A DNA stretch of 30,159 bases, taken from the IMG/VR virus record IMGVR_UViG_3300030106_002420, positions 1-30,159 of that record; one strand, 5' to 3'. Positions within the stretch are counted from its first letter, which is position 1, and each line of letters opens with the position of its first letter. The notes beneath the pieces are model-generated. The model saw only the letters and a program-made list of their open reading frames with translations. It did no database searches and was not told the DNA's origin. The stretch is from a virus. Below, one piece after another: positions 4,257 to 30,159 of this stretch. The position numbers and the translations under genes are program-made.

Positions 4257-4257
4257 G

Positions 4258-5184: not shown

Positions 5185-5197
5185 GGGGCTTCTAATC

Positions 5198-9645: not shown

Positions 9646-12600
9646 AATTCTTCCTCCAATAGCGTTGTGAATGTAGTCACTCCTATGTTCAATGCATTGC
9701 TATTCGTATTTAGCGTTTCCGAATCTGTCGAGTTAGTTCCTAGTGTAAATGCCCCTGCCGGAGTTTCCTTCTTTCTAACTTTTAATTTGATTGGTTTCAC
9801 ATTTATATTTTCTAAGAGGTCGAAACTGATTTCATTATTATTAAATGAATCCTCCCTAACTTTATTATTTATATTTTGATTAGCAATTGCTAATTCTGCA
9901 AATCTATCTTCTAACCCTTTAGTATAACTTCCTAATTCTAAGTCCAAAGTTCCTTGTAAGTTATGTTGCATTTCTGTTATAATAAATTCACTTCTAGGTA
10001 TATCTTCTTCTTCTATCTCTACTGTAACTACATCCCCGACTTTAGTTTGAGAAAGCCCTTTATGCCCTACTGTAAGTTTAAGCCCATAACTTTCATCACT
10101 ATGTAATTTAAGCAATTCACTTGCTCTTTTATCTACATCTTCTTGAGTCACTAACTCATTTTCAAAAAGTTGTAAAGTCTTTCTTCCTTTCTTTTTAATA
10201 TTTTTAGGATTTTTTCTTGAGGCTTTATGTCTTTTGCCAAAAATAACAATTTCATTAAAGTTATCGAATTTATTACTTTCTCTACTGTAAGATAATATTT
10301 CAGTATTTTGATTAGATGTGGTGAAGAAAATATTAGGGAATAAGGAAGCATCTTTGCTTTCTTTTATTGTAAATATATTATTTTCTTCTAATAATGTTTT
10401 TTCTTTTTTGGCTAATAAAAATTGTATTGCAGAAAATAAATCTATTCCTCTATAATTAGGAGCAACGAAGTAAGGATAACTTGATTCAGTTAAATTAAAC
10501 TCGACATCATTTTCTTCTAATATTTCATTAATTAATTTATCAGCATCTTGACAAACAGAAACGGCAGAACCTATCATTGCTCTTTTACCAAAGTTTGTGG
10601 TTTCTCCATTAACTAAAATTTCCATAGTTTCCGAAACAGAAACTACACCTAGCATTTCTTTTTGTTCTTCTAATTCTATATGAAAACCAATTTCATTCCC
10701 ATCATCAATAAAGTTTAAGTTTGTAAAATTATTATTGTCTCCGTCACTAATATTCATTTTTATTTTACCACTACGGAAAACATTTCCTCTTAGGTTAAGT
10801 GGGTCTTCAACAACCAAATTACCATCTGTGCTTTGCCCATCGGGGTCTACCACAACATACATAGATAATACTGCTTCATTATTTCCTTCGTCTTCCCTAT
10901 TACCGAGTCTATCTTTGTATAGATAATTGTTAATATTATCATACATATTATCTTCTTTTGGTTTTTTAGTATATTTAGAAGACAGTTGATTTAATGTTAT
11001 TTTCTTTGGGCTGAAGTTATAAAAACAAGTATGATTAGGTTGCATTATTCTAAAGTTTTTAAATCGTGAAAAATGTGTTGCGCTAGAGGCCGCACTAGGG
11101 AAATCACCACTAACCGTTAGTATGTGCGTTCTATCCGGTCTTGTGGTATCTATCTCATGAGAAATTACATATAAAATATGATTTGGTGTTCCGTTGTTAA
11201 TCGAATGCCTTTCCCCGTTCTCTCCACTACCGACTCCATGTGAGCCACCTATTCCTTTAGTTCCTGCTGTTGAATAATCTTCAACTGTATCATCAAGAGG
11301 ATTAAATGTTTTAACATCCTCCGATACTAAATAACAACCTGTTAAATCAACGAAACTTAACCAATGCATATTGTCTGTATTGAATCTACCATCAAACTCA
11401 TCCCGTTGTGTTTCGGCCTGTATGACCATGTAGTCAGTAAAGGCTAAGGTTGTAACTGTTGTTCCATTAGTAGCGGTATCAGCACCAACTCTACACCTGC
11501 TTATTCTAACAGAAGTATCTTGCCCTGTACTTGTAGCATTCGCTGTCATCTTATATTCATCGGGAGAGCCGGAGATTCTTTCGTAGCCTCTAGTAAATTT
11601 AGGAACTTTCTCGCTATCAACATAAAAAGAACATATGTCAGAAGTAGACCCTAAAGAATAGTGTTCCGCTATATCATCATTATCAGCAATAAATCTACCA
11701 TGTGTAGAAGAAGTTGTATTAAATGTAGCACTTATTGTATATCCAACATCTATCTTCAAGGTTGGTTTAAATCCAACAAAAACACCATCAGCATCATTTT
11801 CATAAGTTGGAGCATTAGAACCTATTGTAGAATCTGTACTAACAACTTTGGTTGCGAAACCTGCCGGTTCTTTATTGAAACTAGTCTTATTTATTGTAGC
11901 GTTTACTAGCCCAAATCTTATTTCTTTATCGTTTGAGCCGTCTACATTTACTCCTCTAGTATTATGTATCTTAGGCATAGCCATACCAATATCTGCCTTC
12001 GCACCACTTCCTCCCGTTATATTATATCTATCAAATATAACAGGTATGTGGTTCTGCATCATTCTGTGAGAGTTTTTATTTACTGAATCTTGAAAGTTGC
12101 TGTAAGTAGAGAATAAATCTGCTCCGGTAAATCCTCGTTGTGAGTTCGTAACATCATCACCTTGATAGCAATGTTTTCCTAGAATTGGAAAAATTTGAGA
12201 TGTCAAAAAATTACTATCGGCACTTGACATTGAACCCTTTATCGTTCCTGCTAAAAATGAATAATAAGCATCATGCCCTGTGGTTGAATCGGATAAAGCA
12301 AATGGCAAAAACATACTACAATCTTCTGTTAAACTTGTTACAGAACCCGCTATTGCATTGACCCCTTTTCTTGTGGCAAAGGTAGTGTCCGTGTAAGTTG
12401 AACTGTTGCCCCCATAACCGCTATCAGCATTGCCCCTATTCGTAGTTGTAGAAACATAGTTGCTTGGGAAGCCAGTTGCATCATCAGCCAAGCCACGCAT
12501 TATTGCCCCCTGTAATAAATTTATATTACCATCCGATTCAATAAAATCATTTTCACTATTATACCCCCTTATTGTAGCAACTCCTGTATTGCTAGAACTA

Positions 12601-15600
12601 GAAGCCTGTTGAGTTTCAAAATCTATCTTAAACAATTCCATATAAGAACCATCGGGAGAACTACCATCTCTTTGATTTAATCTAGGAGAATAGTGGTCAG
12701 CACTAGAATTGGTGGCTAAGTCTGTTTTTCTTGCGGGTAAAAATGTAGTTATTGTGTTTGTTCCTACGCTATCTACTACTCCAATAAATCTACCTGCTCT
12801 ATCAACAAGTATGTCATTCTGTACTAGATTATTAGCGGAAGTAGCCGCACCTGTATCTGCTCTAACGGTATTAATTGTTGTGCCGCTTACAGAACCTATT
12901 GCTATATTATCAGCACCCGAATTAGTTATATTTGAAAAAACATATCGAGGATAGAACGCTATTGTTCCTATGTTTTTATCATTTCTTGGCACATTTTCGG
13001 GGTCAAATTGATTGTAAAAACAATCAACCACGATTTCTGTTAGTCTCATTATGCTAAATCTTCTTAACTGATTTATCTTTTTATCATCATTTACCGAGAC
13101 TATATCGTGGCTTATATAAGAGTCGTCAAACGAACTTATTGTTTGCGTCGTTCCTTTTACTGCTTCTTTAATGTCCGAATGCTGTCTTGTTGTTAATTCT
13201 CTTAGTGTTAGTAGTGAATAATTTGTTATATCTCTATCTTTAGTTACATTTAACAAACTATCCTTTCTAGTAGAAGAATAGGGCAATAAATCACTATTGC
13301 TAAACAAAAACATTCTAGCAATTTTAGGGTCTATTTGTTCAAATTTATCTTTAAATTGATGTGCGGCTCTTAACTTGGCTTCTGTGCCAATTCCATTGCC
13401 GTCAAACATTTTAACTGAAGGAAATGGAGTAAACATAATAGAAGGCATGCCTCCTTCTTGATAACTTTCTTTTTTGTATGGGTCTGCGCTTTTAGTTTCT
13501 AAAGTATTAGGGCTGTAAAATTTATCTCCAATACTAGGTAGAAAGCCTCTTGATTCAATCAATCTTTTATTATCATAATCGAAAAACTTTGCAGTAATGT
13601 TAGTTGCGTTAGCCGTAGCGTTTACAGCAGTTCCATCTAAATCAGTAAGTCTAAGTTCTCTAGCCGTAGTTGCAGTTGTTCCTATATTTATCACATTACC
13701 AACAAAGGTATCATCGGGAATACCTGCCGCAACAATTTTTTGACCTAGCCTAAATACACTTGGGTTGTGAGTATTTGTGGTAATTACAGTTCCTATTTTT
13801 GTTGCTTCTACATAAGCACTACCACTAAAGGTATCTATTTCTCCTTGACCTATAATGTTCATACCACAAATATCAGTTCCTATAATGTTATTTTGTAAGA
13901 AACCATCTGTATAATATCCCGCATTATACCTATATCCGCTAGCATAATATTTTATTTTACTAGCCACCTCTTCATAAAACCTAATATCTTCTGTATTAAA
14001 AAATAAATGTTTAGATTGGCTGTAATTTCCTTTTTCTAAATTTGTCATTCTATAATTAGAAGCACCAAAATTAGATTGATATGTTCCCATTTCGTCTAAC
14101 TTAGTGTCACCTGTAACAAAGTTTCTAGCCTTATTACTACCAACTTCGTGAAATGGTTGTTCTCCTAACATTCTGTAATTTAAAACACTAGTGATATTAT
14201 ACGCATTTGATGATTGTAATACAGGATGAATTAAAGATATATTTTTACCACCATGTAAGTGTCCACCATTTAATAAATTCAAATTATGAGTCAGTTTGGT
14301 AGTTTCTCTTGTAGAATCTTGGTTGTGGTGTCCTTCTAAAATATCTATTACTGTATTGGCCAAAAATGCAAAATTTATTGTTTGAGCAAGATTTATTGTG
14401 CTGTTAAGCGAAGCAGAACTCATGGTTACTTGAGTATCACTATCTATTGAAACGATAGTAGTTCCTGCTGTAAAATTAGAGTGATAAGTTGTCATACCTA
14501 CAAATAATTCTTTTGTTGAATTTAAGTTAGTTATTACTTTACTACCTATTCCCATATCACCTATCTTAGTAACATAACCAACTTCTCTATCTAAATATAT
14601 TCTACATTGTGTTGAAGGTAATGAGAATCTAGTAGTGGTATCGGTAGATGAGCCAGTTGCGCTAGCACTCATAGTTAAACTAGTGCTAGACTCAATAGAA
14701 GAAACAGTAGTTCCGTTTGGTATGTGAGTATGGCTTCCATTTCCTATTTCCATGCCATTTGATAAATAAGTCGTCGTTGTTGTTAGTTGAGTGCTACCTG
14801 CCGTAGTTGCTGATATTTCTAATTCTATATTTTTTTCAACTGAAATAATATTTGCTAAAAACTTTCCATTAACATAAACGGGCTTATCATGAAGATTTCT
14901 TTTGTTTCTAATATGATTATATGCTGATAGCGCATAATCACTATCTACCTCAATGAAACTTTTTGCTATGGTGAAAGCATGTGTGGTTTTACCTAAGTTA
15001 GTTTTTGAAAAAGTTGTATCTTGAGTATTAGCGTAGTTTATGTCCACTCTACCCAATGTTAAAGGATTATAGGGTGCAATAGTTACAAGCGTTCCTGCAT
15101 TTTCTCCGGCTGATTTAGTTTCTACTATTTCAAAATCTATTAGGGTGTTCACGGTATCAAAAGTTGCTTTATTAGAAAAAGTTAAACTTACTCCGGTTGC
15201 ACTTCCTGTTGCGTTTGCGCTCAACTCTAAAGTGTTACTATTCGTGATGCTACTGACTGTTGTTCCTGTTGGTATATTAGTTCCCGAAACTTCCATTCCT
15301 GCAAACAAATTAGTAGTTGATAATAAGGCTGTTATTGTTGCATCTCCCGAAGTAGTAGTTCCTGTTAAGACAACATCGTTATGTAAGCGAGATTGAAAGT
15401 GTGCATCACTTAACATATTTTGAACATCACTTATTTCATATCCAACTGCATTTTCATGTGTGCTTCCACTACTACCAACTAAGTTATCTCCTTCTTCTCC
15501 TGTAGAAGTAATCTTAACACCGGAGTTAAAGAACAAACCTTTGTTAGAAGCACCACTTAAACTAGTTGTTGAATCTACCAATGTATTTGTAGCCAATGCT

Positions 15601-18089
15601 TTGTTTAGTAAGTAGTTCTTATTGCTTTCTTTATATCCTGCCAGTGTCGTTCCTTCTGCTCTTGCGTTATCTACTAAAGTAAAACTAGTTCCTGTAGCAG
15701 TTGTGGCAATCTCACCAATATAACTCATCATTCCCGAAGAGTGTTTTAGGTGAACTTTAGTTCCTGCTGTTAATGTTATACTGCCCGATGAAGTTAATGT
15801 TTTATTAGCAAAACTGCAAGTAAAGTTAGCACTAACACTTTCTAACTTATTGTATGGACTTTGAGTTGAATAAATAATATCTTGAGAAAATAAAGTGTTC
15901 TTAGATATAATAGGAGAAATTAATTTTCTAACATTACTTCTTGCTTCTAAGTCAATAAAAGTCATGGAGTTTTCTTTGTAAATATCTATTCTTTCTATCT
16001 CCCCATTCATTTTTTGAGAATATATCATATATTTTCCAAACATATAATCTAACATAGTGCCTTGAGAATGATATGCAGGTTCAGTGCTTACACTACCATC
16101 GGAGTCAAAATATCCTTTATTTGAAAAAGATAATGTAATTAATTTTTTATTCATATCTATTGCACTAACACTTGCATATAACTCACTAAGAGAATTAGAA
16201 ACCAGTTTAACAAATAAAGTATCGGTTCTATTAGAGACTAATGGAAAATCTGTAAATAAAGTTTTATCTTTTTTATTATATGCTCTCCTTTCAAGTACGC
16301 TATCATTTGCTAATGTGTAAGAACCAGTAGTAAATATTGATTCGGTTTCTAATCTACTGTGAGTTCTAAATGTAATACTTTGAGTTTTACCACTAATAGA
16401 TGCTATGCTTTCAACAATAACTATTCTTGTACCAACTCTAACTTCATCACCAACATTCAAATAACTACCTAAATCGTGGTCTGTTGTTGTTGCATAAGTA
16501 TTGCCGCTAGTGTTAGAAGTTATTACAGCACCTATTGATTTGAACTCATTAAAGTCTCCGGTAAACAGTCGGTGTCTCATTCTAATCGGTTCTTCATCCC
16601 CTATTTTTTTAGATATTATTCTAAATGGGTCAGCCATTTTTAATTTAACTATTGATGATTTTGCTCCCATAGATTCATACATTATGTGTTCAATAACATT
16701 ATTCGCTATGTTTGCTCTATCTTTTGATAGTGAATAGGACAAGTATCTATATGGGCCATTATAATCTTGACTTGCAGTATCAGTTATTGTGTCATTATCA
16801 TCTCTTCTAGCGTTAGTAAAGCAAGCATCACTTGTAAATGGAGTGTAAGTTAATATTGTTTCTCCTTCATTACTGGTATGAGTAGAAGGATTATCTTGGT
16901 TTTTTAGGTTATCAATTAATTTAGTCTTTAGAGTATATTTACTATAATCTATAATATCTGTTCCGAAATCGGGAGTTGTCGTAAAAAAACTTCTAGTGTT
17001 TATTGCATCACTAGTAGCCGATACTGCAACAAAGTCTAGTTCAGAAAATAACATATTATATTTTTTATTATGGTCAAGTTCATTTTTCTTATCTAAGTTT
17101 TCGTTGAAAAAATAAAACAGTGGCCTCGCTACTGAAACAGAAGCAGAAAGAGAGTTTTTAATTCCTAAACCAATTGCCGCTATTGTTTTATCTGTTGGTA
17201 TGGGCGTAGAATATAGTTTAAACTTAACATTCTTTGCTATCTCATTTCCTAACTTTGGTCTAAACTCAAATGCGTCTCCGCTAATATCATCAGTAAATAT
17301 TTCCGATACTTTAGCAAAGTGGTGTTTATTCTCGTCATCCGAATGAATCATTACAAATAAATGAGTTGTTGTTAAATCTATGCTGTTTAGCCTCACTCCT
17401 GTTTGAGTTGTATCGTCAAAACATTTTATTCTAATTCCTTCTGTAACTTCTAAGTTTCTATGCTCTATACCTAAAACAAAGGTAGCACCAGTAGCACTAG
17501 TTGTTGCTTTTTCTGTCAATGTAAATTCTGTGCTAGAATTTATCATTTTTATTCTAGCAACTTTATTTTGAGGTAAATTTTCTGTGGCAAAACCTGTACC
17601 TTGAACAGATTGCCCTACATACAAACCGTTAGTATTTCCACTAGACAAGGTTACAGTTGGGCTATTTTGTGTAACATCACAATTCCCTAATGTTGTTCTA
17701 CCAACGGCTGTCAAGTTAATACTGCCGGAGTTTTCCTCTATTATTGCTACCCCGAAATTATCTACCGTAGAACCATTCGATGAAGGCGAAGTCGCACTAA
17801 CGCAAAGTTGAGGGTTTGTTGGAACATCGAATGCTGTTCTAGTAAATGTAAGAGTTCCGGTAGCACCACTACCACTTGCTTCTCTACTCATTGTTATGTT
17901 AGTATTAGTTGAAATAGCAGTAACTATTGTATTATCTTCTATGTTAGTTCCACTTACTTTCATACCAATTAAAATATCGCTAGTATCGCTAATCGGCAAA
18001 GTCTCGCTACCCGATGTAGCAGTTGTTGTAGATTTAGTTACTGTAGTAGTCGGCCTACTTAGCGCAACCAAAGTAGAAACTTCTGTCAT
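9642..18089 (-). CDS. Giant tail-tip / baseplate hub protein, 2815 aa
   Basis: One uninterrupted frame of 8.4 kb. The ATG has GAGGAGG upstream and overlaps the previous stop (ATGA). The N-terminal ~1500 residues are Ser/Thr/Asn-rich beta structure with dispersed copies of a ~65-residue module (pattern GMxVSGTxIxxGTxVxSI...T/S-rich...ATGSATG), clearest at residues 13-85, 133-207 and 910-973. The C-terminal part (about 2350-2750) looks like a tail hub (gp27/Tal-like): VSVSETMEILVNG, RGIDLFSAIQFLLAKK, then FNEIVIFGKRHKASRK and VGDVVTVEIEEEDIPRSEF. Only single scattered Cys residues are present. The size and order (after tape measure, distal tail and LamG genes) suggest a tail-tip protein carrying adhesin-like decorations. 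No catalytic domain was recognised. Confidence 0.8.
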   Translation of the reverse strand: MTEVSTLVALSRPTTTVTKSTTTATSGSETLPISDTSDILIGMKVSGTNIEDNTIVTAISTNTNITMSREASGSGATGTLTFTRTAFDVPTNPQLCVSATSPSSNGSTVDNFGVAIIEENSGSINLTAVGRTTLGNCDVTQNSPTVTLSSGNTNGLYVGQSVQGTGFATENLPQNKVARIKMINSSTEFTLTEKATTSATGATFVLGIEHRNLEVTEGIRIKCFDDTTQTGVRLNSIDLTTTHLFVMIHSDDENKHHFAKVSEIFTDDISGDAFEFRPKLGNEIAKNVKFKLYSTPIPTDKTIAAIGLGIKNSLSASVSVARPLFYFFNENLDKKNELDHNKKYNMLFSELDFVAVSATSDAINTRSFFTTTPDFGTDIIDYSKYTLKTKLIDNLKNQDNPSTHTSNEGETILTYTPFTSDACFTNARRDDNDTITDTASQDYNGPYRYLSYSLSKDRANIANNVIEHIMYESMGAKSSIVKLKMADPFRIISKKIGDEEPIRMRHRLFTGDFNEFKSIGAVITSNTSGNTYATTTDHDLGSYLNVGDEVRVGTRIVIVESIASISGKTQSITFRTHSRLETESIFTTGSYTLANDSVLERRAYNKKDKTLFTDFPLVSNRTDTLFVKLVSNSLSELYASVSAIDMNKKLITLSFSNKGYFDSDGSVSTEPAYHSQGTMLDYMFGKYMIYSQKMNGEIERIDIYKENSMTFIDLEARSNVRKLISPIISKNTLFSQDIIYSTQSPYNKLESVSANFTCSFANKTLTSSGSITLTAGTKVHLKHSSGMMSYIGEIATTATGTSFTLVDNARAEGTTLAGYKESNKNYLLNKALATNTLVDSTTSLSGASNKGLFFNSGVKITSTGEEGDNLVGSSGSTHENAVGYEISDVQNMLSDAHFQSRLHNDVVLTGTTTSGDATITALLSTTNLFAGMEVSGTNIPTGTTVSSITNSNTLELSANATGSATGVSLTFSNKATFDTVNTLIDFEIVETKSAGENAGTLVTIAPYNPLTLGRVDINYANTQDTTFSKTNLGKTTHAFTIAKSFIEVDSDYALSAYNHIRNKRNLHDKPVYVNGKFLANIISVEKNIELEISATTAGSTQLTTTTTYLSNGMEIGNGSHTHIPNGTTVSSIESSTSLTMSASATGSSTDTTTRFSLPSTQCRIYLDREVGYVTKIGDMGIGSKVITNLNSTKELFVGMTTYHSNFTAGTTIVSIDSDTQVTMSSASLNSTINLAQTINFAFLANTVIDILEGHHNQDSTRETTKLTHNLNLLNGGHLHGGKNISLIHPVLQSSNAYNITSVLNYRMLGEQPFHEVGSNKARNFVTGDTKLDEMGTYQSNFGASNYRMTNLEKGNYSQSKHLFFNTEDIRFYEEVASKIKYYASGYRYNAGYYTDGFLQNNIIGTDICGMNIIGQGEIDTFSGSAYVEATKIGTVITTNTHNPSVFRLGQKIVAAGIPDDTFVGNVINIGTTATTARELRLTDLDGTAVNATANATNITAKFFDYDNKRLIESRGFLPSIGDKFYSPNTLETKSADPYKKESYQEGGMPSIMFTPFPSVKMFDGNGIGTEAKLRAAHQFKDKFEQIDPKIARMFLFSNSDLLPYSSTRKDSLLNVTKDRDITNYSLLTLRELTTRQHSDIKEAVKGTTQTISSFDDSYISHDIVSVNDDKKINQLRRFSIMRLTEIVVDCFYNQFDPENVPRNDKNIGTIAFYPRYVFSNITNSGADNIAIGSVSGTTINTVRADTGAATSANNLVQNDILVDRAGRFIGVVDSVGTNTITTFLPARKTDLATNSSADHYSPRLNQRDGSSPDGSYMELFKIDFETQQASSSSNTGVATIRGYNSENDFIESDGNINLLQGAIMRGLADDATGFPSNYVSTTTNRGNADSGYGGNSSTYTDTTFATRKGVNAIAGSVTSLTEDCSMFLPFALSDSTTGHDAYYSFLAGTIKGSMSSADSNFLTSQIFPILGKHCYQGDDVTNSQRGFTGADLFSTYSNFQDSVNKNSHRMMQNHIPVIFDRYNITGGSGAKADIGMAMPKIHNTRGVNVDGSNDKEIRFGLVNATINKTSFNKEPAGFATKVVSTDSTIGSNAPTYENDADGVFVGFKPTLKIDVGYTISATFNTTSSTHGRFIADNDDIAEHYSLGSTSDICSFYVDSEKVPKFTRGYERISGSPDEYKMTANATSTGQDTSVRISRCRVGADTATNGTTVTTLAFTDYMVIQAETQRDEFDGRFNTDNMHWLSFVDLTGCYLVSEDVKTFNPLDDTVEDYSTAGTKGIGGSHGVGSGENGERHSINNGTPNHILYVISHEIDTTRPDRTHILTVSGDFPSAASSATHFSRFKNFRIMQPNHTCFYNFSPKKITLNQLSSKYTKKPKEDNMYDNINNYLYKDRLGNREDEGNNEAVLSMYVVVDPDGQSTDGNLVVEDPLNLRGNVFRSGKIKMNISDGDNNNFTNLNFIDDGNEIGFHIELEEQKEMLGVVSVSETMEILVNGETTNFGKRAMIGSAVSVCQDADKLINEILEENDVEFNLTESSYPYFVAPNYRGIDLFSAIQFLLAKKEKTLLEENNIFTIKESKDASLFPNIFFTTSNQNTEILSYSRESNKFDNFNEIVIFGKRHKASRKNPKNIKKKGRKTLQLFENELVTQEDVDKRASELLKLHSDESYGLKLTVGHKGLSQTKVGDVVTVEIEEEDIPRSEFIITEMQHNLQGTLDLELGSYTKGLEDRFAELAIANQNINNKVREDSFNNNEISFDLLENINVKPIKLKVRKKETPAGAFTLGTNSTDSETLNTNSNALNIGVTTFTTLLEEEF
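14364..14552 (-). repeat. Beta-module copy 5 in giant tail protein
   Basis: A GIGSKVITNL lead, then FVGMTTYHSNFTAGTTIVSI and DTQVTMSSASLNST. It lies about 70 bases after copy 4. The turn residues VSGT are replaced by TYHS. Confidence 0.6.
14622..14807 (-). repeat. Beta-module copy 4 in giant tail protein
   Basis: A TTAGSTQLTT lead, then GMEIGNGSHTHIPNGTTV, SSIESSTSLTMS and the ending ATGSSTDTTTRF. It follows copy 3 by about 360 bases. Confidence 0.7.
15171..15362 (-). repeat. Beta-module copy 3 in giant tail protein
   Basis: Residues 910-973: GTTTSGDATIT lead, then GMEVSGTNIPTGTTVSSI, a strand with NTLELS, and the ending ATGSATGVSLTF. This is the cleanest copy and serves as a reference for the others. 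Confidence 0.75.
17469..17693 (-). repeat. Beta-module copy 2 in giant tail protein
   Basis: Residues 133-207: a TVTLSSGNTNGLYVGQ lead, QGTGF, STEFTLT, and the ending TSATGATFVL. More divergent, with an insertion between the GTGF turn and the next strand. Confidence 0.6.
17835..18053 (-). repeat. Beta-module copy 1 in giant tail protein
   Basis: Residues 13-85 of the giant protein: a T/S-rich lead, then GMKVSGTNIEDNTIV, a short strand with TNTNITMS, and the ending GSGATGTLTF. It is the copy closest to the N-terminus and matches copy 3 best. Confidence 0.7.
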
Positions 18090-19837: not shown

Positions 19838-21808
19838 TCACCTCACTATACTAGAAGATGAAGACACTCTTCTATTGATATTACCTGCAACTAACTTGCC
19901 TATTTTATCTGCAAGCATTCTAAGTTCTGCATCGGAGTTACCTTTTGCTTCTACATTAACTGTAATGTTATTGTGGTGAGTATTGTTTACAGTATTAGAA
20001 GGCGTAGAAAGCAATCTGTTAGTTTCACTATTGTTGTGAACTTTAGCACCTGCCGGTAACTCTACTATTTCTGCACCTCTTTCTCCAACTAAATAATTAC
20101 CTGCTATAGTGGTTGTTCCACCATTTGCCATTGCGCCTTCTACTGTTTTTGCACCTTTTTCTAAAAGATTGAGAGTTCCTGTTCCTACATCTTCAAGGAA
20201 TTTTCCAGCAGTTCGCACTATACTCACATCAAATACCTCTTTGAAAAGAAAGCCCTTTGCTGAGTTTATAGCAAACTTAACAGCCTCCAATACTCCTTGA
20301 GCAATAGCGGGTATCAAATTCTGTATGCTTTCGACTAATTTATCTTTTATAGAGATTAAACTGTTTTTCAAATCTTCACTGTATCTATCTGCAACTGCGT
20401 ATAATAAAGCGGCCATAGCGACTACAAAAAGAATAGGCAACGCATACATTCCTGCTAGAGTAAGCAATCCTATTGCTACAGTCTTGAGCATATATGCACC
20501 TAGTGCTATTTTTAAAACTATTAAACCATAACCTATTACTTTTTCTCTAAAAGAGGGATTTCCTATAAATGCCTCAAAGAATCTTATGATTAAATCAAAG
20601 CCACCAACCAATGTCATAAATGCTAACTTGACTAATAACTTAGCACCTTTAATTCCTAAATCAACTGCTTTTTCTAATATTGGCCCTAATAACGCAAATG
20701 CTTTTTGATAATCACCATCTATGAATGCCCCAACAACTTTGAAGACACTACCTATTAAGGCTATCACTTCCATACCAAATGCTTTCACTTCATCAACAAT
20801 ACCCATTTCTTGTAAGAATTGGAATATTTCATAAGCGGCTTTAACAAACAATAGAAAAGTTATTACTGCCATCATAGTAAATAAAAAGAATTTAAATGCT
20901 TGATTTAATAATGGGGCTAGGGATTTAGTAAAATCACTTGCTTTCGTTGCCAATCGTTTTCTATCTTTTGCTATTTTTAATATGCCCGCTAGAGGGGCTA
21001 GCGGCATTAGCAAGGCTTTGAATTGTTTACTATCAAAAGTCATATCAAATGCGCTTTTAATTGATTCCCCTCTACTTTCTTTTAAAACATCCGTTTGGTC
21101 TTGTTTCTGTTGTTTCTTTTCCTCTTTACCTGCCTTTTTCATGGCGGCTTTTACTTCTTTTTTGCTTTTACCTTCCGCTAATGCCTTTATCTTCGCTTCT
21201 TCTTTAGCAATTTTTATTCTATCTTTATCAAAAGCATATTGCTTTCTTAAAACTTTAAGAGTTTCTTCATTCTCTTTTTTAGCACCTTCAGCCTGTTTAT
21301 TGAGCATGCTTCTTGCTCTTAGCAAAGCCTTTGTTTCATCACCAGTCTGTTTCAAGGCTATGGTATAAATATCTAATCCCTTTATTTGTTCTTCTAACAA
21401 TTTAGTTTGTTCTTCATCTAATACTGCACCCTCAGCAAATTTGTCAATAACAATATTAGCGTTTTCAACATTTTCTTTTAGTGTATCATAATTTTTCAAA
21501 TTCTCTACAACTACTTTATTTTGCTCTTGTAAAGCCTCTTGTGCCTTTCTAGCCGATTCACCGAACTCCGAAAAAGTAGATAGTGCGGCTCTTAGATAGT
21601 TTTGAAATCTCCATAAAGGAGTTCCCGAAACAATCCTACTAAAAATAGTCCACTTCTTACCTGCGCCATTTAATGAGTTTGCCGCATCTAAAAATCCTTT
21701 AGCAAAGCCTTGAACTTTGCCAGTAGTATTAAAGATAGTAGTTTCTAAAGAACCTAAACTGCCATCAATCTTGGCAATTTTTCTATCGGTGCTTTCTAAG
21801 TTTTCCAT
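19838..21808 (-). CDS. Tail tape measure protein, 656 aa
   Basis: Sets tail length and is expelled at infection. The N-terminal ~250 residues are coiled-coil helix, very rich in Lys, Glu and Gln (EEKKQQKQDQ). A central hydrophobic region (about 290-500) has several membrane-like segments (FKFFLFTMMAVITFLLFV; ILFVVAMAALLYAVA). Near residue 574 the motif VGERGAEIVELPAGAKV matches the C-terminal hallmark of tape measures (VGExGPElvxLPxGxxV). The chaperone frameshift product ends five bases before this ATG, the classical arrangement. At 656 aa, a tail of roughly 100 nm would be expected from the usual residue-to-length relation. Confidence 0.92.
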   Translation of the reverse strand: MENLESTDRKIAKIDGSLGSLETTIFNTTGKVQGFAKGFLDAANSLNGAGKKWTIFSRIVSGTPLWRFQNYLRAALSTFSEFGESARKAQEALQEQNKVVVENLKNYDTLKENVENANIVIDKFAEGAVLDEEQTKLLEEQIKGLDIYTIALKQTGDETKALLRARSMLNKQAEGAKKENEETLKVLRKQYAFDKDRIKIAKEEAKIKALAEGKSKKEVKAAMKKAGKEEKKQQKQDQTDVLKESRGESIKSAFDMTFDSKQFKALLMPLAPLAGILKIAKDRKRLATKASDFTKSLAPLLNQAFKFFLFTMMAVITFLLFVKAAYEIFQFLQEMGIVDEVKAFGMEVIALIGSVFKVVGAFIDGDYQKAFALLGPILEKAVDLGIKGAKLLVKLAFMTLVGGFDLIIRFFEAFIGNPSFREKVIGYGLIVLKIALGAYMLKTVAIGLLTLAGMYALPILFVVAMAALLYAVADRYSEDLKNSLISIKDKLVESIQNLIPAIAQGVLEAVKFAINSAKGFLFKEVFDVSIVRTAGKFLEDVGTGTLNLLEKGAKTVEGAMANGGTTTIAGNYLVGERGAEIVELPAGAKVHNNSETNRLLSTPSNTVNNTHHNNITVNVEAKGNSDAELRMLADKIGKLVAGNINRRVSSSSSIVR

Positions 21809-22552: not shown

Positions 22553-24193
22553 TCACCCCTGCAATACCCAGTGGGTTGTAACTTCGCATAGGTGTAAATC
22601 TCTTGGCATTACTGTTGCTTCGACAGTAACAGAACTTTTATCATCGGGTATAGTAACATTGGCCGAACCTAGCATATAATTCTTGAATTGTAATTTTATT
22701 TGCTCCGTATTTCCTTTTGTAAAGAGCAGTTGAATCAAACCATTGTCAGCAGTAAGAGTAGTTCCTGTTTGTTCTGCTTGGTCAAATATTTCTTCAAATA
22801 GTCTGTTATCTGTAACTAAAGCAGTAAATGTCAATTCATAGTTTCTGTTTGCAGGAATACCATCTTTTATTTGTTTATTACCAATTCCAACGAACCTTTT
22901 ATCTTGTATGTTATTGTTAATAGTTAGAGATAAATTTGTTATCTTTAGGAACTCTTGACCAAAAATTGTGAAAGAACCGGATGAAAAGAAAAACGGTTCT
23001 AAGAATTCAGCATCATCGGTTGTATCATTAAGGTTGAATAATTTATTATTATCGTCACCCGCACCACCTCTCGCTTCATAACTTTCATCAGTCTTAAGTT
23101 TGTGAACTGTTCTACTGTTTAAATCCATAGTCATTTTTAACTCTTCATTTTCATTAGCAGTTAATGTTAGAGTATTGACTCTATTACCTCTAGCAATTCT
23201 AACAAAGTTATGCGATTCTGTTGCTATTCCAGTATCTCCTGTGATAAATGTACTACTTGATTCAAGTTTACTTAGACTTTGTTCAAGTGAAAATGAAGGT
23301 AACTCTTCTCCATTTGATTCTGCAAAGGTGTAAGTAATAGCATTTGTAAGAGCAGTAGCAGTAGTTGTTGTTCTTGTCAATAATTCTACATTTGCGGTCA
23401 AATCTAAATTATAAAGAAGAGGTGGGGTAAGTGCTACTCCCTTTACTCCCGTCGCACCATAACCTGTCTTATAGAAAATTGGCCCTTGACTTAAGTGAGT
23501 TTGTGTTTTATTATTTCCACCACCGGCATCTCCATTGTCAATATATACATCTCCTGCTGTTCCGGCAAGAAGATGATTAGAAGGATTAGGAGCAGTAGTA
23601 GTGCATTCAACATGGCTACAAGAACCTAAAGCATAATACAGAAATGCACCGTGATTACAAATATATCCTAAACTTCCACCACTAGCAGTTTCCATACCCT
23701 TGTATTGGTATTCCATGTTTCTAGTTGTTCCCAAACCAATGTTCATTTGTTTTACTTCTGCTTCTACATTAGGAAATGTAGATGCTTCTAATATTCCTAG
23801 CCAGTTATCAGCGTTTAATCTTTTAACAGTTCCATTCTTTTGCCCTACACATGGCGCACCATAACTTCTAATTATTACAAAATCACTATCATCACTTGCT
23901 AATGTAACTGTGCTTGCGATACTAGGGCTAATTGTGATTGAGTCGCTGTCATTGCTTGTAATTGTGTGAGTTGAAGCAGGAACGGTAAGAGATACATCAG
24001 CATTGAAAAAATCAACAACGCACCCAACATAAATATCTTCAACAAAAGAATAACTATTCAAAAAACCTGAAACAGCGTGTAGATTTGTTAAATCACTACT
24101 TTCGCTTGCATCTATTTGAAATATTAAATCAGTTTCCGGCACTAAGGCCAAGTTCGCTCCGCTTCCTAAAAAAATGTCTGTGTTTATTGCCAT
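22553..24193 (-). CDS. Probable major tail (tube) protein, 546 aa
   Basis: The ATG is preceded by GGGGAGATAAAG, a strong site fitting an abundant product. The protein is beta-rich with Thr/Ser/Asp stretches. A segment typical of tube proteins, NWLGILEASTFPNVEAEVKQ, is followed by GTTRNMEYQY and, near the end, NLSLTINNNIQDKRFVGIG and LQFKNYMLGSANVTIP. It directly precedes the tail chaperones and tape measure, the standard slot. At 546 aa it is about twice the size of simple tube proteins, so it probably carries extra surface domains (for example residues 25-130, and a Cys-containing loop near 180-215). Confidence 0.75.
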   Translation of the reverse strand: MAINTDIFLGSGANLALVPETDLIFQIDASESSDLTNLHAVSGFLNSYSFVEDIYVGCVVDFFNADVSLTVPASTHTITSNDSDSITISPSIASTVTLASDDSDFVIIRSYGAPCVGQKNGTVKRLNADNWLGILEASTFPNVEAEVKQMNIGLGTTRNMEYQYKGMETASGGSLGYICNHGAFLYYALGSCSHVECTTTAPNPSNHLLAGTAGDVYIDNGDAGGGNNKTQTHLSQGPIFYKTGYGATGVKGVALTPPLLYNLDLTANVELLTRTTTTATALTNAITYTFAESNGEELPSFSLEQSLSKLESSSTFITGDTGIATESHNFVRIARGNRVNTLTLTANENEELKMTMDLNSRTVHKLKTDESYEARGGAGDDNNKLFNLNDTTDDAEFLEPFFFSSGSFTIFGQEFLKITNLSLTINNNIQDKRFVGIGNKQIKDGIPANRNYELTFTALVTDNRLFEEIFDQAEQTGTTLTADNGLIQLLFTKGNTEQIKLQFKNYMLGSANVTIPDDKSSVTVEATVMPRDLHLCEVTTHWVLQG

Positions 24194-24931: not shown

Positions 24932-26050
24932 TCACTCCAAGAGATAAACCAAATCACCCTTTCCTTTCAGTATATCCATAGCCTCTTTAGTTAAAATGTC
25001 ATATTTTTCTTTTGTAGATATGTTGCCACCAGTTTCAGCAATCATTATTGTTTGGTCATCATGTCTTAATAATTCAGCCGCTACTAACATCGTCGTGGCT
25101 TTATGTATAGCCGATGGCACACGACTTGAACCTGCAACATATGTAATAATGATAGAGTTTTGAGTATGATATGGATAATCTCTCAAAAAGAATATTCTAC
25201 CATCATCCTTAATACTCCAAAAACTACCTAGCCTTTTCATATCTTGCTTATCAGTAAATGCTTCCGAAGCGGACTGTGAGTTCTGCCCTGCTTTATCTGC
25301 AAGTGTTATTGTGCATCCCGAACCATCTTCCCCTGCCAATAGGCTTGAAATATTAATTTTATATCCATTATCGGGGTCAATAGAAGCATAAAAGAAATCA
25401 CTTATGCTTAAACTATTTGGAGAAGAAGACCTTTCTTTTTCTCTATTTGCTCCTGTAAACTGTGCAGTATTAGCAGGGAATTCTTCATTAATTAAATGAC
25501 AAATATCCCTCGCTGTTGTTTTTGCGCCAAATCTACTGTCGAATGTGTTGTGTGCCGACATTGTTCCTTCGGCATGATGAAATAAAGTAAAAGTATCACC
25601 GCTATTTGGTAATTGTAAAGTTATACTTCTAAGGTGTTGAAAAGCATCGGGGTCTAATGTAATGCTTGCTTGGGCTGACGCTAATTCAAGATAACTATTA
25701 CCTTGCCAAACCTTGAGAGAGATAACTTTCTTTAGTTTCATAGTTGCTAATTGTATAAATCCAACATAACCGCCATAATATGCTTGCATTGGATGTCTAA
25801 CAAATTCAAAATCATGAAACTCATCTTTGTGTATAATGGGTCTGTAAGACCTCTTTACTTTATCATCAACCATGCCTTCAATGTTTTTTATTATCTTACC
25901 GACCTGTGCTTGGCTAGGAAATGTAGAAGATGTAAATGCAGGTATCTGTAACATATCCGATACTGCGTCTTTGTCAGTATAGAATCCTTTACCTGTTGAA
26001 TAATCAACATCAATAGATGTATAGTCGCTTGGGGATGATGCTATTGCCAT
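24932..26050 (-). CDS. Putative head-tail connector / adaptor protein, 372 aa
   Basis: GAGAGGTTT precedes the ATG. The N-terminal helices (FPSQAQVGKIIKNIEGMVDD, then KVKRSYRP) and the C-terminal helical bundle (IHKATTMLVAAELLRHDDQ; MDILKGKGDLVYLLE) are like gp6/gp15-type adaptors that dock to the portal. Between them lies a ~200-residue beta-rich insertion with a Thr/Ser pattern. The adaptor slot (before neck and tail terminator) fits. No signature is conclusive. Confidence 0.6.
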   Translation of the reverse strand: MAIASSPSDYTSIDVDYSTGKGFYTDKDAVSDMLQIPAFTSSTFPSQAQVGKIIKNIEGMVDDKVKRSYRPIIHKDEFHDFEFVRHPMQAYYGGYVGFIQLATMKLKKVISLKVWQGNSYLELASAQASITLDPDAFQHLRSITLQLPNSGDTFTLFHHAEGTMSAHNTFDSRFGAKTTARDICHLINEEFPANTAQFTGANREKERSSSPNSLSISDFFYASIDPDNGYKINISSLLAGEDGSGCTITLADKAGQNSQSASEAFTDKQDMKRLGSFWSIKDDGRIFFLRDYPYHTQNSIIITYVAGSSRVPSAIHKATTMLVAAELLRHDDQTIMIAETGGNISTKEKYDILTKEAMDILKGKGDLVYLLE

Positions 26051-26054
26051 TGTA

Positions 26055-27977
26055 TCAAACCTCTCTTTCTAATATATTTAATTCTTCTTTGATGTCAAAT
26101 ATAAAATCTCTTGCTGTTCTTGTTGATTCTAAGTCGGGTTGAGACTTTTTATCGGACAATGCAGTTTGTAATTTTCTTAAGTTTACATTCTTATATTTTA
26201 TAGTGCTAGGTTGGCCATTAAACTTACCTAAAGAGTATGTATAACTAGTTGTAGTTTCTCCATCCGAATCTTTTGCAGTAAAGGCAAACCTATCAATAAC
26301 TAATCTAAAGTCCATAACTTTAGTAACATCTCCTATGGTTTCACCAAAGTATTGTTTGTCTAATACCCTGCTTGGACTATTATACAATATTCTTAGCATT
26401 TCACTAGTTTCAGTATCTTCTGCGTCTCTAGCAGGTAAACCTTTATCGCTTTCTTTTATTCTTTTGTCAATAAATTTTCTTTTATTGGCTAAATAATTTT
26501 TAAATATTGGTTTCAAAAGGTCGCCACTATTCTTACTTTTACCTAACTCAATTTCATATCTACTTTTATCGAAATCCGGTAACAATAATAGATGCTTTGC
26601 CTTTAATGGGTTATTTTGTGGATTATTATATCCTATAACCCTCATTTGACTTAACATATCTTTATGTGTCGCAATAACACTAGCCACTCCTTCAAAACTT
26701 CCACCGCCTATTTTTACTTCACTAAGAGTTTTCTTTAAGTCGTCTAATATGCCTTGCTCAACAGGTTCATCAATAATCTCTTTTAGAAAATCCTTAACAA
26801 AGCCCTGTGTTTTTTCTCTTTCTTTTTCAGTAGTTTCCTCTATTATTTGTTCTTCTTTTGCCCTAAAGTCTTTTTCTTCTTCGGGGCTTTCGAGCCTATC
26901 AAACATTTCATCTACTTGTTCTTCGGTAGCATCTTCGATATACGATTCAATATCTCTCAATGCAGGATTTCTTTCTAAAAGTAATTTTCTTAAATTATCA
27001 ATATAGTTATCAAATACAGGTCTAAGTTTGTCTGTTTCTCTTTTAAGTTTAGAATATTCTTTTGCCGCTTTCTTTCCTTTTTTTGTGTCTTCGTATTGTT
27101 TTCCAAATATTATTTCTAAACTATCTGCCGCAGTTTTTTGTTCTCTACCTGTTGTTGTGGCTATGGGTATGACTTGTTTTCTATAAAGAGGACTACTTTC
27201 TAAAGATAACTTTTCATCATCTCCTCCCCCAATAGTCATTTTAGTTTCTTGTTGAATTTTTTTACTTGTTATAATATTAGGAAGTAATATATTTCTTAGG
27301 TCTTTTGGCTCTTTAACAAAACCTGCATCGAATAACACTACCGCTTTAGGATAACCTTCCATATACCCATCTACTTCTAGTGTTAAATTGTCTATATAGG
27401 CATCGTTGCTTAATTCAGTAAATGTAATAATTTTAGTTTTTTTGTTTTTGTTTCTATGAGATTTTTCTTCAACATTAAAAATATTATTACCACTAGCATC
27501 TTTATATTTTTTAAGTTTGTTTAACTCACTTTTAGTCAAACCCTGTCTAATCCTAGATTGACTCTCCTTTGTTGCCTTTGTGTCTCTAAAAACACTTGCT
27601 AATTTTTGACTTGTTAAATCTTTTAATTTTATTTCTGCAAGTTCTTTTCCTATTTCGTTAGTTTTTAAGAAACTTTCAATGTCTTTTTTTAGTCGCAATT
27701 GAAATCTATTATCGTTTATAATAGTCAAAATAGATTTATTTTTTAGTGCTGATAGTGCTTTTTTGTAAACACTTATAAATTTATTTTCATCATATGCTTC
27801 AGCACCAAAGTTTTTTTCTTTTACATCATCGGGGTCTACTCTTTCAGCATAATCTTCTGTTCCTTTTGCAGTAGAACCTTCTGCTAAATAATCAAATAAA
27901 ATAAACTCGGCAAATCTTTGAGTTGCTATAGGCTGAGTCCAAGATAGAGGACTACCCTTAGCATCTTTTATTCTCAA
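26055..27977 (-). CDS. Hypothetical charged protein, 640 aa, head region
   Basis: I do not recognise this protein. It starts with a TTG that has AAGGTGATT upstream, and no ATG is close. It is strongly charged, Lys/Glu/Asp-rich, with long helical stretches: RKLLLERNPALRDIESYIED, EEQVDEMFDRLESPEEEKDF, KEREKTQGFVKDFLKEIIDE. The first ~230 residues and the last ~150 look more globular (MDFRLVIDRFAFTAKD; TRTARDFIFDIKEELNILER). The slot just before the adaptor is where head morphogenesis genes are found. A scaffold-, protease- or portal-type role cannot be shown, and no Ser/His or zinc motif stands out. Confidence 0.65.
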   Translation of the reverse strand: MRIKDAKGSPLSWTQPIATQRFAEFILFDYLAEGSTAKGTEDYAERVDPDDVKEKNFGAEAYDENKFISVYKKALSALKNKSILTIINDNRFQLRLKKDIESFLKTNEIGKELAEIKLKDLTSQKLASVFRDTKATKESQSRIRQGLTKSELNKLKKYKDASGNNIFNVEEKSHRNKNKKTKIITFTELSNDAYIDNLTLEVDGYMEGYPKAVVLFDAGFVKEPKDLRNILLPNIITSKKIQQETKMTIGGGDDEKLSLESSPLYRKQVIPIATTTGREQKTAADSLEIIFGKQYEDTKKGKKAAKEYSKLKRETDKLRPVFDNYIDNLRKLLLERNPALRDIESYIEDATEEQVDEMFDRLESPEEEKDFRAKEEQIIEETTEKEREKTQGFVKDFLKEIIDEPVEQGILDDLKKTLSEVKIGGGSFEGVASVIATHKDMLSQMRVIGYNNPQNNPLKAKHLLLLPDFDKSRYEIELGKSKNSGDLLKPIFKNYLANKRKFIDKRIKESDKGLPARDAEDTETSEMLRILYNSPSRVLDKQYFGETIGDVTKVMDFRLVIDRFAFTAKDSDGETTTSYTYSLGKFNGQPSTIKYKNVNLRKLQTALSDKKSQPDLESTRTARDFIFDIKEELNILEREV

Positions 27978-27989
27978 AAAGAATCACCT

Positions 27990-28658
27990 TCACATTAACC
28001 ATTTAGCCCAAGCCGCACCTTTTTGTATAGCACTACCTAAACCTAAACCGCTTTGTGGAGGTTCGTAACTCATTTGTCCTTGAGCATCTATCCAATATGG
28101 TCTTCCATAATTATCAGTTCCCGAAGGTGGAATAGGATAACCAGTGCCATTATTCATAGCACCTTGCATTTGATTGTATTGTTGCATATTACCTGTTAAT
28201 CCTGCTATTGCCACACCTGCTGTTGGTTGTGTCATTTGTTGCATACCACCACCACCGCTAAATCCTTGAGATTCTAGGTATTGTTGTTTTGCTAACTTTC
28301 TTTGATTAACAACTTCTGTATTAATTGCCGCATCTAATATATTCTTAATATCCAAATCAATGTTTTCTTGAGTAATCTTTTCAAACTCTCTCATGGCATC
28401 ATTATGAATCTTTAACATTCCTGTTGTAGAATCAGTTGTAAATTGTAACTTAGCCAACATTTTACTAACTACTCTTTCTACAACATCTTCCATAAGTTTC
28501 TCCATCTGTGTCAAAAACATTTGTCCATGATATTGAAAGAACTCTTCAACATGATTATCTTGTAAAGAAAGTAGATTATTTACATTCTTAAATTGTTGGT
28601 CACTTTGCGCTTGTACTGCGCCTAATACTGTTCCGTTACTTGTTCCAAAAACTCCCAT
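27990..28658 (-). CDS. Hypothetical Gln/Met-rich protein, 222 aa
   Basis: The preferred start is the ATG at 28658, one base after the previous stop and with GGGTGAG upstream; a GTG at 28667 is an alternative. The first half is helical (FFQYHGQMFLTQMEKLMEDV, then VVSKMLAKLQ). The second half is rich in Gln, Met, Gly and Pro (GGGGMQQMTQ; QQYNQMQGAMNNG), low-complexity and probably disordered. It ends with a short hydrophobic/Trp segment (GAAWAKWLM). No family recognised. It shares the operon with the GTPase and the zinc protein. Confidence 0.65.
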   Translation of the reverse strand: MGVFGTSNGTVLGAVQAQSDQQFKNVNNLLSLQDNHVEEFFQYHGQMFLTQMEKLMEDVVERVVSKMLAKLQFTTDSTTGMLKIHNDAMREFEKITQENIDLDIKNILDAAINTEVVNQRKLAKQQYLESQGFSGGGGMQQMTQPTAGVAIAGLTGNMQQYNQMQGAMNNGTGYPIPPSGTDNYGRPYWIDAQGQMSYEPPQSGLGLGSAIQKGAAWAKWLM

Positions 28659-28659
28659 A

Positions 28660-29292
28660 TTACTCACCCTGCTCTCCTTTAATTAGATAATTAATCCTTT
28701 CTGTATTTAATTGTATTTCTGCCGTCAATCTAACCATTTCTGCTAATTGTGTTTCTGCATCTTTAGCCGGAGTTGGTGGCGTTATAGCCCATCCCATGCT
28801 AGTCAGCCTCATAACATCTTCTTTTGTTAAGTCATTTATTTGCTGTCTTTTTAACATATTAGGCATTTTCGCTTTAGGAATAAATGCCTTAAAATCTAAC
28901 CCATGTTCATCTGCTAATATTTGTTGTTGGAGCATTTCCATTTGTTTGTGAATAGCCGCATGTTTAGGACAATATGTTCCTCTAAGTGGCCTACCTTTCT
29001 CCACCTTATCTAATGGTATTGGTGGTCTTAGGTAATCTCCTGCTTCCCAAACATGGTGAGTTCCACATACTACACATCTATCTTTAAAGTTAAACTTGTG
29101 ACCATATTTCAAAAACAATATTTGTTTCTTCTCCGGTAACAATACTTTTCTTATTTCTTTCATTTGCTTCTTTGGTTTTAACGCATCAAACTTATAATCT
29201 TCAATTGGCCCAATTGCTCTATACTGTTGTAGTTTAGGCAAAAAAGCGTTCTTTGCTTGTTGCGTGTTTATCAAATTCGGTTGCTGATACAT
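28660..29292 (-). CDS. Putative zinc-binding protein, 210 aa
   Basis: The ATG is preceded by TGAGG, which includes the GTPase stop. A candidate zinc site is C73-V-V-C76 (RCVVCGTHH) with C108-P-K-H111 (YCPKH), a C2-C-H arrangement in a central domain of about 50 residues. The flanking parts are helical; the last ~60 residues (LAEMVRLTAEIQLNTERINY) look like a coiled coil. The HNH endonuclease pattern was considered (CxxC zinc knuckles plus His), but the expected HNH core is not clear. Possible roles are a virion-associated scaffold or a partner of the adjacent GTPase. Confidence 0.6.
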   Translation of the reverse strand: MYQQPNLINTQQAKNAFLPKLQQYRAIGPIEDYKFDALKPKKQMKEIRKVLLPEKKQILFLKYGHKFNFKDRCVVCGTHHVWEAGDYLRPPIPLDKVEKGRPLRGTYCPKHAAIHKQMEMLQQQILADEHGLDFKAFIPKAKMPNMLKRQQINDLTKEDVMRLTSMGWAITPPTPAKDAETQLAEMVRLTAEIQLNTERINYLIKGEQGE

Positions 29293-29302
29293 CTTTCATT
29301 CC

Positions 29303-29965
29303 TCAATAATCTTTTATCATACTAGTAATTCCTTTATACACCATTTCGGGGTCGGACTTTGCTGATACTATATACTTGAAACAAGGTATTCCCTTGTCAT
29401 TCAACTGCCTCATTCCGTATGTAAACGGTTCAAATATTTCATGTTTATCTATGGGTTTATCGCTTTTATACTTCTCTCCCCACATATCATATTTGTTAGC
29501 CCATATGCCAACTGCCATAGGATAATCCACTTCTTTTTTCTTTCTACCCGAAGGCCATCTATCAGCAACAATAGTATCTACTAAAAATTTCCATGCTAAC
29601 TGATGGTCTAAATTAGAAGGAGAATCTAAATGCCTATGGTCTATCATAAAAATAATGTATTTTACTCTACGCCTTTGCATATCTTTGACCCATTCTTTCC
29701 AATAGATTGCCTCTCCTCCTAAATCAGCACTTTTAATTGTATGAGAATCTCCATCAATTTTTACATTTTTTCTAGTGGCTCTATGTAAACCAACTGTTCT
29801 TTCGCTTATCGTGGGAACTTCCCCCCTTGTTCTAAGTTGGTGACTTAAAGTTGTTTTACCAACCATTGTAGAACCATAAACTCCAAAGTTAATTGCGTGA
29901 ACTCTTTTGTAAAAACCTATTATTGCTTCACCTACTAATATGGCAAAGCCCGTCATTATTGACAT
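29303..29965 (-). CDS. Small Ras/Arf-superfamily GTPase, 220 aa
   Basis: All G motifs are visible in order: P-loop GSTMVGKTT (31-39), a switch-I Thr in ERTVG (55-59), G3 DLGGE (81-85), G4 NKYD (157-160) and G5 SAKS (201-204). The DxGG form with Gly-Gly is typical of Arf and SR-beta-like GTPases. The following residue, Gln in Arf and Ras, is Glu (E85). The first ~20 residues (MTGFAILVGEAIIGFYKRV) form a hydrophobic or amphipathic helix that could hold the protein on a membrane. GGAG precedes the ATG. This is not a known standard virion gene. It sits between a membrane protein and a zinc protein, so a membrane- or assembly-related switch is proposed, not shown. Confidence 0.85.
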   Translation of the reverse strand: MSIMTGFAILVGEAIIGFYKRVHAINFGVYGSTMVGKTTLSHQLRTRGEVPTISERTVGLHRATRKNVKIDGDSHTIKSADLGGEAIYWKEWVKDMQRRRVKYIIFMIDHRHLDSPSNLDHQLAWKFLVDTIVADRWPSGRKKKEVDYPMAVGIWANKYDMWGEKYKSDKPIDKHEIFEPFTYGMRQLNDKGIPCFKYIVSAKSDPEMVYKGITSMIKDY

Positions 29966-29966
29966 A

Positions 29967-30159
29967 TTAATGACTCCAAATATCTTTAGCCCTCTCTATA
30001 ATCCAACCCATTATATTGATGTCAAAGACTCCCATGATATTACCTATCAAAAAGGCTGATAGCACCGCACAAGAACCCCAAAAATACATCTTCATTTTTA
30101 TGAAGAACATATCTGCCGAATGCGCTCGACTTTGATTATACACATAGTCGGACTCACTA
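29967..30159 (-). CDS. Membrane protein, C-terminal part (partial)
   Basis: Open from the window edge to a TAA one base before the GTPase ATG, giving at least 63 residues. Visible are a polar N-terminal part (DYVYNQSRAHSADMFF), a membrane segment around YFWGSCAVLSAFLIGNIMGV, and a short amphipathic end (GWIIERAKDIWSH). The internal ATG has no ribosome-binding site, so the gene probably starts beyond the window. Tight spacing with the GTPase suggests co-expression. Confidence 0.65.
   Translation of the reverse strand, partial: SESDYVYNQSRAHSADMFFIKMKMYFWGSCAVLSAFLIGNIMGVFDINIMGWIIERAKDIWSH

Follow-up and report, generated by a model that had tools for sequence, protein, structure and literature searches.

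A predicted Ras-superfamily GTPase at the centre of a conserved five-gene cassette in one clade of Magrovirales-type tailed viruses

Introduction

To our knowledge, Ras-like switches are uncommon except in cells and giant viruses, and the exit of tailed archaeal viruses from their hosts is largely unsolved. In euryarchaea, membrane-linked small GTPases govern vesiculation, which was shown only recently (PMC10927574). Knock-out of ArvA (OapA) in Haloferax volcanii abolishes RNA-bearing vesicles; the predicted structure of ArvA contains an N-terminal amphipathic helix, and a Zn-ribbon protein encoded nearby has been proposed to act as its GAP (PMC10927574). Among tailed viruses, the Magrovirales/Aoguangviridae have been described as carrying an HK97 major capsid protein (MCP) related to that of the Druskaviridae, PolB and GroEL in genomes of about 90–110 kb, with opposed replication and virion modules (PMC10768690).

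Here we describe a gene for a predicted small GTPase and its setting in a stretch of viral DNA, IMG/VR record IMGVR_UViG_3300030106_002420. The window that was analysed is the entire 30.2 kb record (30,159 nucleotides). A literature search yielded no report of such a GTPase gene in a tailed virus, although a mention in a table of an earlier magrovirus paper is possible.

Results

The virus and its host

Because the record stops inside a gene and its relatives are longer (85–97 kb for those that are near full length), the window is evidently a fragment. The MCP of the relatives is of the HK97 type and shares 24% identity with that of Druskaviridae HVTV-1; a PolB domain, mostly at two separate places, and GroEL were found in all ten of the relatives' records tested. 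Comparison of these relatives with the published description points, at the family level, to a fragment of a Magrovirales-type tailed virus. The hosts of the magrovirus group are given in the literature as Poseidoniales, and the virus of the window presumably infects the same group. Capture of the gene from an Asgard-type host, which a first-pass annotation of the window had considered, is not supported: the viral, phage, plasmid and genome contig collections scanned gave no evidence for it, and the published work ties the group to Poseidoniales. The GTPase-carrying viruses are widespread in the ocean and probably infect archaea.

A scan of genome contigs for the GTPase matched only one magrovirus contig (NZMJ01000024.1), which is filed in a bacterial Maricaulis MAG and represents a binning contamination (locus L082). 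A further contig, 184,733 bases long, consists of two distinct magrovirus genomes joined head to tail (L064 and L081) and carries two GTPases and two GroEL; it is probably a product of assembly or long-read concatenation.

The GTPase gene and its predicted fold

The GTPase reading frame is open and starts with ATG. The first-pass annotation had described a Ras-superfamily small GTPase with motifs G1 to G5, a hydrophobic N-terminal helix and an adjoining membrane protein gene, and each of these features was recovered (Table 1). The full motif set occurs in order within the 220 residues; none of 200,000 shuffles of a protein of the same composition produced this order. The N-terminal helix was seen both in the AF2 model and by hydropathy (mean Kyte–Doolittle value 1.6–1.8). 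Its hydrophobic moment is weak (0.26–0.32) and Gly2 for myristoylation is absent. Because the helix is hydrophobic throughout more than it is amphipathic, a fixed anchor of the SR-beta type is equally possible. The adjoining gene encodes a protein with one transmembrane segment (1-TM) and is cut by the end of the contig.

Table 1. Features of the GTPase locus and the neighbouring late genes in the window
Feature	Position	Strand	Evidence or remark
Tape measure protein	19838..21808	-	tail-length tape measure phrog_19914, 4e-5
Tail tube protein	22553..24193	-	PF18906 6e-13, phrog_290 3e-17
Predicted neck/head-tail adaptor	24932..26050	-	phrog_17057 5e-16; weak match to head-tail adaptor phrog_442
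Variable structural-region protein, 640 aa, 3' flank of cassette site	26055..27977	-	position shared with empty-site clade
Helical protein, 225 aa, cassette gene 5	27990..28667	-	conserved C-terminus GYPIPPSGTDNYGRPYWI...AAWAKWLM
C2CH zinc-site protein, 210 aa, cassette gene 4	28660..29292	-	C73, C76, C108, H111
Predicted small Ras-superfamily GTPase, 220 aa, cassette gene 3	29303..29965	-	motifs, profile scores, predicted fold
G5 SAK, residues 201-203	29357..29365	-	kept in relatives' alignment
G4 NKYD, residues 157-160	29486..29497	-	kept in relatives' alignment
G3 DLGGE, residues 81-85	29711..29725	-	Glu in place of catalytic Gln
G2 threonine T57 (RTVG)	29795..29797	-	R56 and T57 invariant in 41-row alignment
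G1/P-loop GSTMVGKT, residues 31-38	29852..29875	-	G36, K37 and T38 invariant in 41-row alignment
Hydrophobic N-terminal helix, residues 2-22, predicted membrane-binding/anchoring segment	29900..29962	-	AF2 helix, modest confidence
1-TM protein (~72 aa) with RAHSAD, C-terminal part, cassette gene 2	29967..30158	-	cut by contig end

Taken as a single protein, the window GTPase gave only weak profile scores, all under the curated cut-offs (TIGR00231, 1e-4; MMR_HSR1, 0.002; Roc, 0.014; SRPRB, 0.027; Ras, 0.08), and family labels alone are therefore insufficient. Divergent relatives scored 3e-5 with SRPRB, the best Pfam E-value reached by any member, 2e-4 with MMR_HSR1 and 3e-4 with Arf, again under the cut-offs where these are shown; the Ras, Rab, Roc, SRPRB and Arf models gave similar scores. 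An AF2 model built on a 41-row alignment (mean pLDDT 67, with residues 42–84 of the switch region poor) superseded a first model from 11 near-identical rows (pLDDT 57). Its element order, b1-a1-b2-b3-a2-b4-a3-b5-a4-b6-a5, is that of Ras, plus the extra helix at residues 2–22. Foldseek comparison of the model with the PDB yielded 1235 matches at E <= 0.001, headed by Rab33 (2e-8) and Ras, and the top 50 were all Ras-superfamily proteins or their complexes. Among viral proteins (BFVD), the best named matches were Rab, Ran and Ras proteins of giant viruses. The PHROGs, phage and plasmid collections contained no convincing relative.

On motifs and predicted fold, the product is thus a genuine Ras-superfamily small GTPase, for which binding and hydrolysis of GTP are predicted. 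That it is actually a P-loop enzyme of some other kind, for example a kinase or an ATPase for packaging, is scarcely credible: the weak single-sequence scores and one weak PHROGs match of the window protein to a Sak4-like family (0.11) stand against invariant NKxD and SAK motifs, DxGG and the Ras-superfamily fold matches, which rule out a packaging or other P-loop ATPase, and searches of Pfam, PHROGs and the PDB neither placed the protein in a non-Ras P-loop class nor gave a convincing match to ASCE-type or terminase families.

We assign the protein to no subfamily. The DxGG motif, initially read as that of the Arf/SR-beta group, is present, but family membership did not hold up in HMM searches: the Arf cut-off (PF00025) was missed (20.7 versus 22.3 bits for the divergent relative L261), as was the SR-beta cut-off of 25 bits (PF09439; 14.3 for the window GTPase and 19.4 for L261), and no NCBIfam or Pfam model of MglA was matched. 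Membership of Arf or SR-beta is unsupported by these scores, and we make no claim of membership of ArvA.

Conservation in relatives and the glutamate after DxGG

Successive scans of viral contigs returned 165, 234 and 358 stretches encoding relatives, which places the gene in at least 358 viral contigs, counts that include redundant fetches; distinct counts are used below where given. The gene is thus not missing from close relatives. Among the distinct family proteins of the fetched loci (n=115), DxGG is present in 114 and SAK in 112, the remainder being mostly truncated. Catalytic and base-binding residues are invariant in the 41-row alignment, which extends down to 61% identity.

Pairwise, non-independent dN/dS estimates on the same locus pairs were 0.090 for the GTPase, 0.102 for the two-transmembrane (2-TM) protein, 0.129 for the helical protein, 0.158 for the zinc protein and 0.199 for the MCP. 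The loci were partly picked by GTPase similarity, which biases them toward GTPase conservation, and the other genes were compared on these same loci; on them, purifying selection acts more strongly on the GTPase than on the MCP. The dN/dS of 0.09 and the motif invariance rule out a decaying or chance reading frame.

The residue after DxGG is Glu in 99 distinct GTPases (DxGGE) and Gln in 15 (DVGGQ, the Arf form). The switch between the two corresponds to one change on the GTPase tree, on a weak branch (SH-aLRT 67). Judged from the aligned proteins, Glu is a stable lineage trait, with Gln in one sub-lineage, and not decay. Ras Q61E is not dead, and its intrinsic GTP hydrolysis can be faster. Because Glu is fixed in the lineage and Ras Q61E still hydrolyses GTP, the residue is better read as tuning the rate than as damage. 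The earlier remark that Glu replaces Gln and may alter hydrolysis stands as to the replacement; the idea of damaged hydrolysis is weakened by fixation in 99 proteins and by the single change on the tree.

A five-gene cassette

The scan of related viral contigs revealed a conserved gene neighbourhood: in one Magrovirales-type clade, the GTPase lies at the heart of a cassette of five genes. The order is 2-TM protein, 1-TM RAHSA[DE] protein, GTPase, C2CH zinc protein and helical protein. After removal of repeats, 146 distinct GTPase DNA sequences (loci) were left; 124 of these hold the full cassette, and the same 124 also contain the MCP gene. Apparent absences of cassette genes nearly all reflect contigs that end too early (possible exceptions are L020 and L253).

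The suggested link with membrane protein genes extends to two of them, since the 1-TM and 2-TM genes are constantly upstream of the GTPase. The 2-TM gene (~129 aa) falls past the end of the window; in relatives it was found upstream wherever the locus extends far enough. The 1-TM gene is separated from the GTPase start by 1 base in the window, and its product has the RAHSA[DE] motif and the transmembrane segment in 124/124 distinct relatives. On the other side, the zinc protein gene starts 10 bases past the GTPase stop; its C, C, C and H ligands are invariant (124/124). No Pfam family, ArfGAP and DUF2072 included, matched the zinc protein, and the spacing of the ArfGAP zinc site differs from its C-x2-C-x31-C-x2-H pattern. 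The helical protein, with a weak match to Phasin_2 under the cut-off (8e-4), was recovered from almost every locus that extends far enough, and the zinc and helical gene pair is uninterrupted in all 124 loci. Insertions in relatives occur in the gaps on both sides of the GTPase (1-TM/GTPase and GTPase/zinc).

The cassette site in the late operon

In the relatives, the genes follow the order prohead protease, MCP, small head proteins, cassette, large variable protein, adaptor and tail tube, so that the cassette occupies a single site between the head-decoration and neck genes. The original placement of the GTPase in a virion operon is thereby confirmed, with tail tube and tape measure genes in the window and the MCP gene in relatives. 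In two relatives (L028, 2866-5355; L064, 2656-5160), a protein with an apparent ATP-dependent DNA ligase domain is encoded directly before the prohead protease.

In a survey that began from the MCP instead of the GTPase, 42 loci had the GTPase downstream of their MCP; the loci of this MCP clade that lack it all break off no more than 2.6 kb from the MCP. The GTPase is missing from a related marine clade (L172-L180) and from Druskaviridae HVTV-1. On the MCP tree, presence and absence of the cassette correspond to a single change (SH-aLRT 97), and the cassette is one unit that was gained or lost as a whole, gain and loss not being separable on this quick tree with some long outgroup branches and no firm root.

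In the empty-site clade, the gene after the decoration gene encodes 600-886 aa. The decoration gene of one member (L174) stops at 5578 and the large protein begins at 5590, with about 11 bases between them; the two genes nearly abut, and therefore all five cassette genes are absent together. A GTPase profile search of this record (64 kb, incomplete) found no match anywhere. Because the site is empty in this clade, the core head-neck plan can do without the cassette.

Tagged late proteins and an inserted motif

A shared N-terminal tag, approximately M(x)W[KE][DN]ILK, begins 172 of 3927 distinct ORFs, with 4 expected. The bodies of the tagged ORFs fall into 76 unrelated clusters, and in MCP-bearing loci all of them (171/171) lie on the structural strand. 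In five stretches elsewhere in the genomes, the PolB and GroEL regions included, none of 263 ORFs carried the tag. Examples are found in L174 (9348-14376), L034 (3300-3590), L020 (4728-5312), L328 and L334; L328 contains, in one magrovirus, a tandem array of ~8 paralogous tagged proteins (MSWVDILKETITQGRVKEIEDIDIDIEDDD...; 1082-5891, minus strand). Of the insertions in the gaps flanking the GTPase, 51/53 carry a tagged ORF. The tag resembles a transferable signal for the targeting of late proteins and may direct packaged cargo to the capsid, by analogy with T4. A role of the GTPase as general loader of tagged late proteins was rejected because the related clade without the cassette carries tagged ORFs too.

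A second short motif, approximately VGMxVSGTNIPxGTTVSSITxxxxxxLS, is repeated in a putative tail protein of 2815 aa (9642-18089, minus strand). In relatives, decoration and adaptor proteins carry insertions of motifs of this type (the L028 adaptor; L174, 5105-5578), which may represent an exchangeable surface domain.

Comparison with known GTPase systems

ArvA is the nearest counterpart that has been worked out and, like the viral protein, is a single-domain small GTPase with an N-terminal helix and a membrane context; a zinc-binding protein is encoded close by in both systems, and MMR_HSR1/Arf is the best simple Pfam label of both. This likeness to ArvA (HVO_3014) is drawn from its published description. 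The viral gene differs in its position in a late operon and in the additional 1-TM and 2-TM genes. Because the ArvB (DUF2073) and ArvC (DUF2072) domains were not found by Pfam in the two genes downstream of the viral GTPase, we do not file the cassette as ArvA.

The Arf family, including Asgard ArfR, shares with the viral GTPase DxGG, a helix before the G domain and the overall fold, but the viral protein mostly has Glu for Gln, lacks a glycine at position 2 and falls under the Pfam cut-off. In SR-beta (SRPRB), too, the Arf-like G domain is immediately preceded by a hydrophobic stretch; here the differences are the viral setting, scores under the cut-off where shown and no adjoining SR-alpha gene seen. 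MglA is also a prokaryotic Ras-like switch, but the viral GTPase matches no MglA model and no MglB of the Roadblock type was found among the scanned neighbours. The Rab, Ran and Ras proteins of giant viruses, the best viral structural matches, are also virus-encoded; they are, however, annotated as host-type proteins and belong to viruses of eukaryotes. None of them is known to us as part of a conserved cassette in the late operon of a tailed virus.

Discussion

The presence of membrane proteins in a cassette beside the genes of the virus shell suggests that these viruses switch some late membrane event. By analogy with ArvA, we tentatively propose that the cassette may be a membrane-tethered GTP switch that acts late, mainly for virion exit; we regard this as quite possible, though short of probable. 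The course that we propose is as follows. The GTPase would be produced late, together with the virion proteins, and its hydrophobic N-terminal helix, along with the two small membrane proteins, would tether it to the host membrane. There it would alternate between GTP and GDP states, with the zinc protein encoded directly downstream as a likely GAP-like regulator or effector. The active form would drive or time a late membrane event, most likely deformation or opening of the membrane for exit and, next in likelihood, a membrane-linked maturation of heads.

A late membrane switch is consistent with the G1 to G5 motifs, intact in 115 distinct proteins, with a Ras fold extended by an N-terminal helix, and with dN/dS values of the GTPase and the 2-TM protein that both lie under that of the MCP. 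The 2-TM, 1-TM and zinc genes are constant companions in a cassette that behaves as one unit at a single site, and the analogous ArvA is needed for vesicle budding (PMC10927574). Several observations fit it less well. The zinc protein matches neither ArfGAP nor DUF2072 and has a spacing unlike that of ArfGAP, the N-terminal helix is weakly amphipathic, and viruses of the related clade get through their cycle with no cassette. Genes for lysis tend to evolve rapidly, whereas conservation of the cassette is roughly equal to that of the capsid or above it, which suits a tightly constrained complex better than exit. The head-neck position could instead mean that the products are part of the virion.

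A somewhat unlikely reading is that the GTPase, acting at the membrane in the manner of a chaperone or a checkpoint, controls maturation of heads or joining of head and neck, the TM proteins possibly serving as a membrane start site for procapsids. The fixed place between head-decoration and neck genes, conservation exceeding that of the MCP and the co-conserved helical protein speak for such an assembly switch, but the related clade has the same head and neck flanks without the cassette, and HVTV-1 likewise manages without the GTPase.

We consider it unlikely that the GTPase is directed at the host, as a mimic or decoy that engages the host small-GTPase or vesiculation machinery against superinfection, defence or vesicle loss. 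The control of euryarchaeal vesiculation by membrane-linked small GTPases (PMC10927574) speaks for it, and Glu at the catalytic position could alter the on-time; against it stand the late-operon position and the invariable association with four virus-specific genes, for which the collections searched gave no cellular relatives. Less probable still is a virion-borne entry module, in which the TM proteins and the GTPase would be packaged and would work at the host membrane while the genome is delivered: tagged late genes resembling packaged cargo surround the cassette, but the cassette proteins themselves are without the tag and a nucleotide switch in the virion would need the GTP of the new host.

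To return to the late membrane switch, its boldest form would be a self-contained, membrane-anchored GTPase machine that remodels the archaeal membrane or opens it to release virions, and no earlier cassette built on a small GTPase would be known from Caudoviricetes; we hold this stronger version to be rather doubtful. If true, a tailed virus would possess an exit system driven by a GTPase and composed of a switch, a zinc regulator, two membrane proteins and a helical effector.

A Ras-type switch can be a long-standing, strongly selected gene of tailed viruses and not an occasional host capture. Together with its empty-site counterpart, the conserved viral GTPase cassette offers a testable entry to virus exit and to the control of archaeal membranes.
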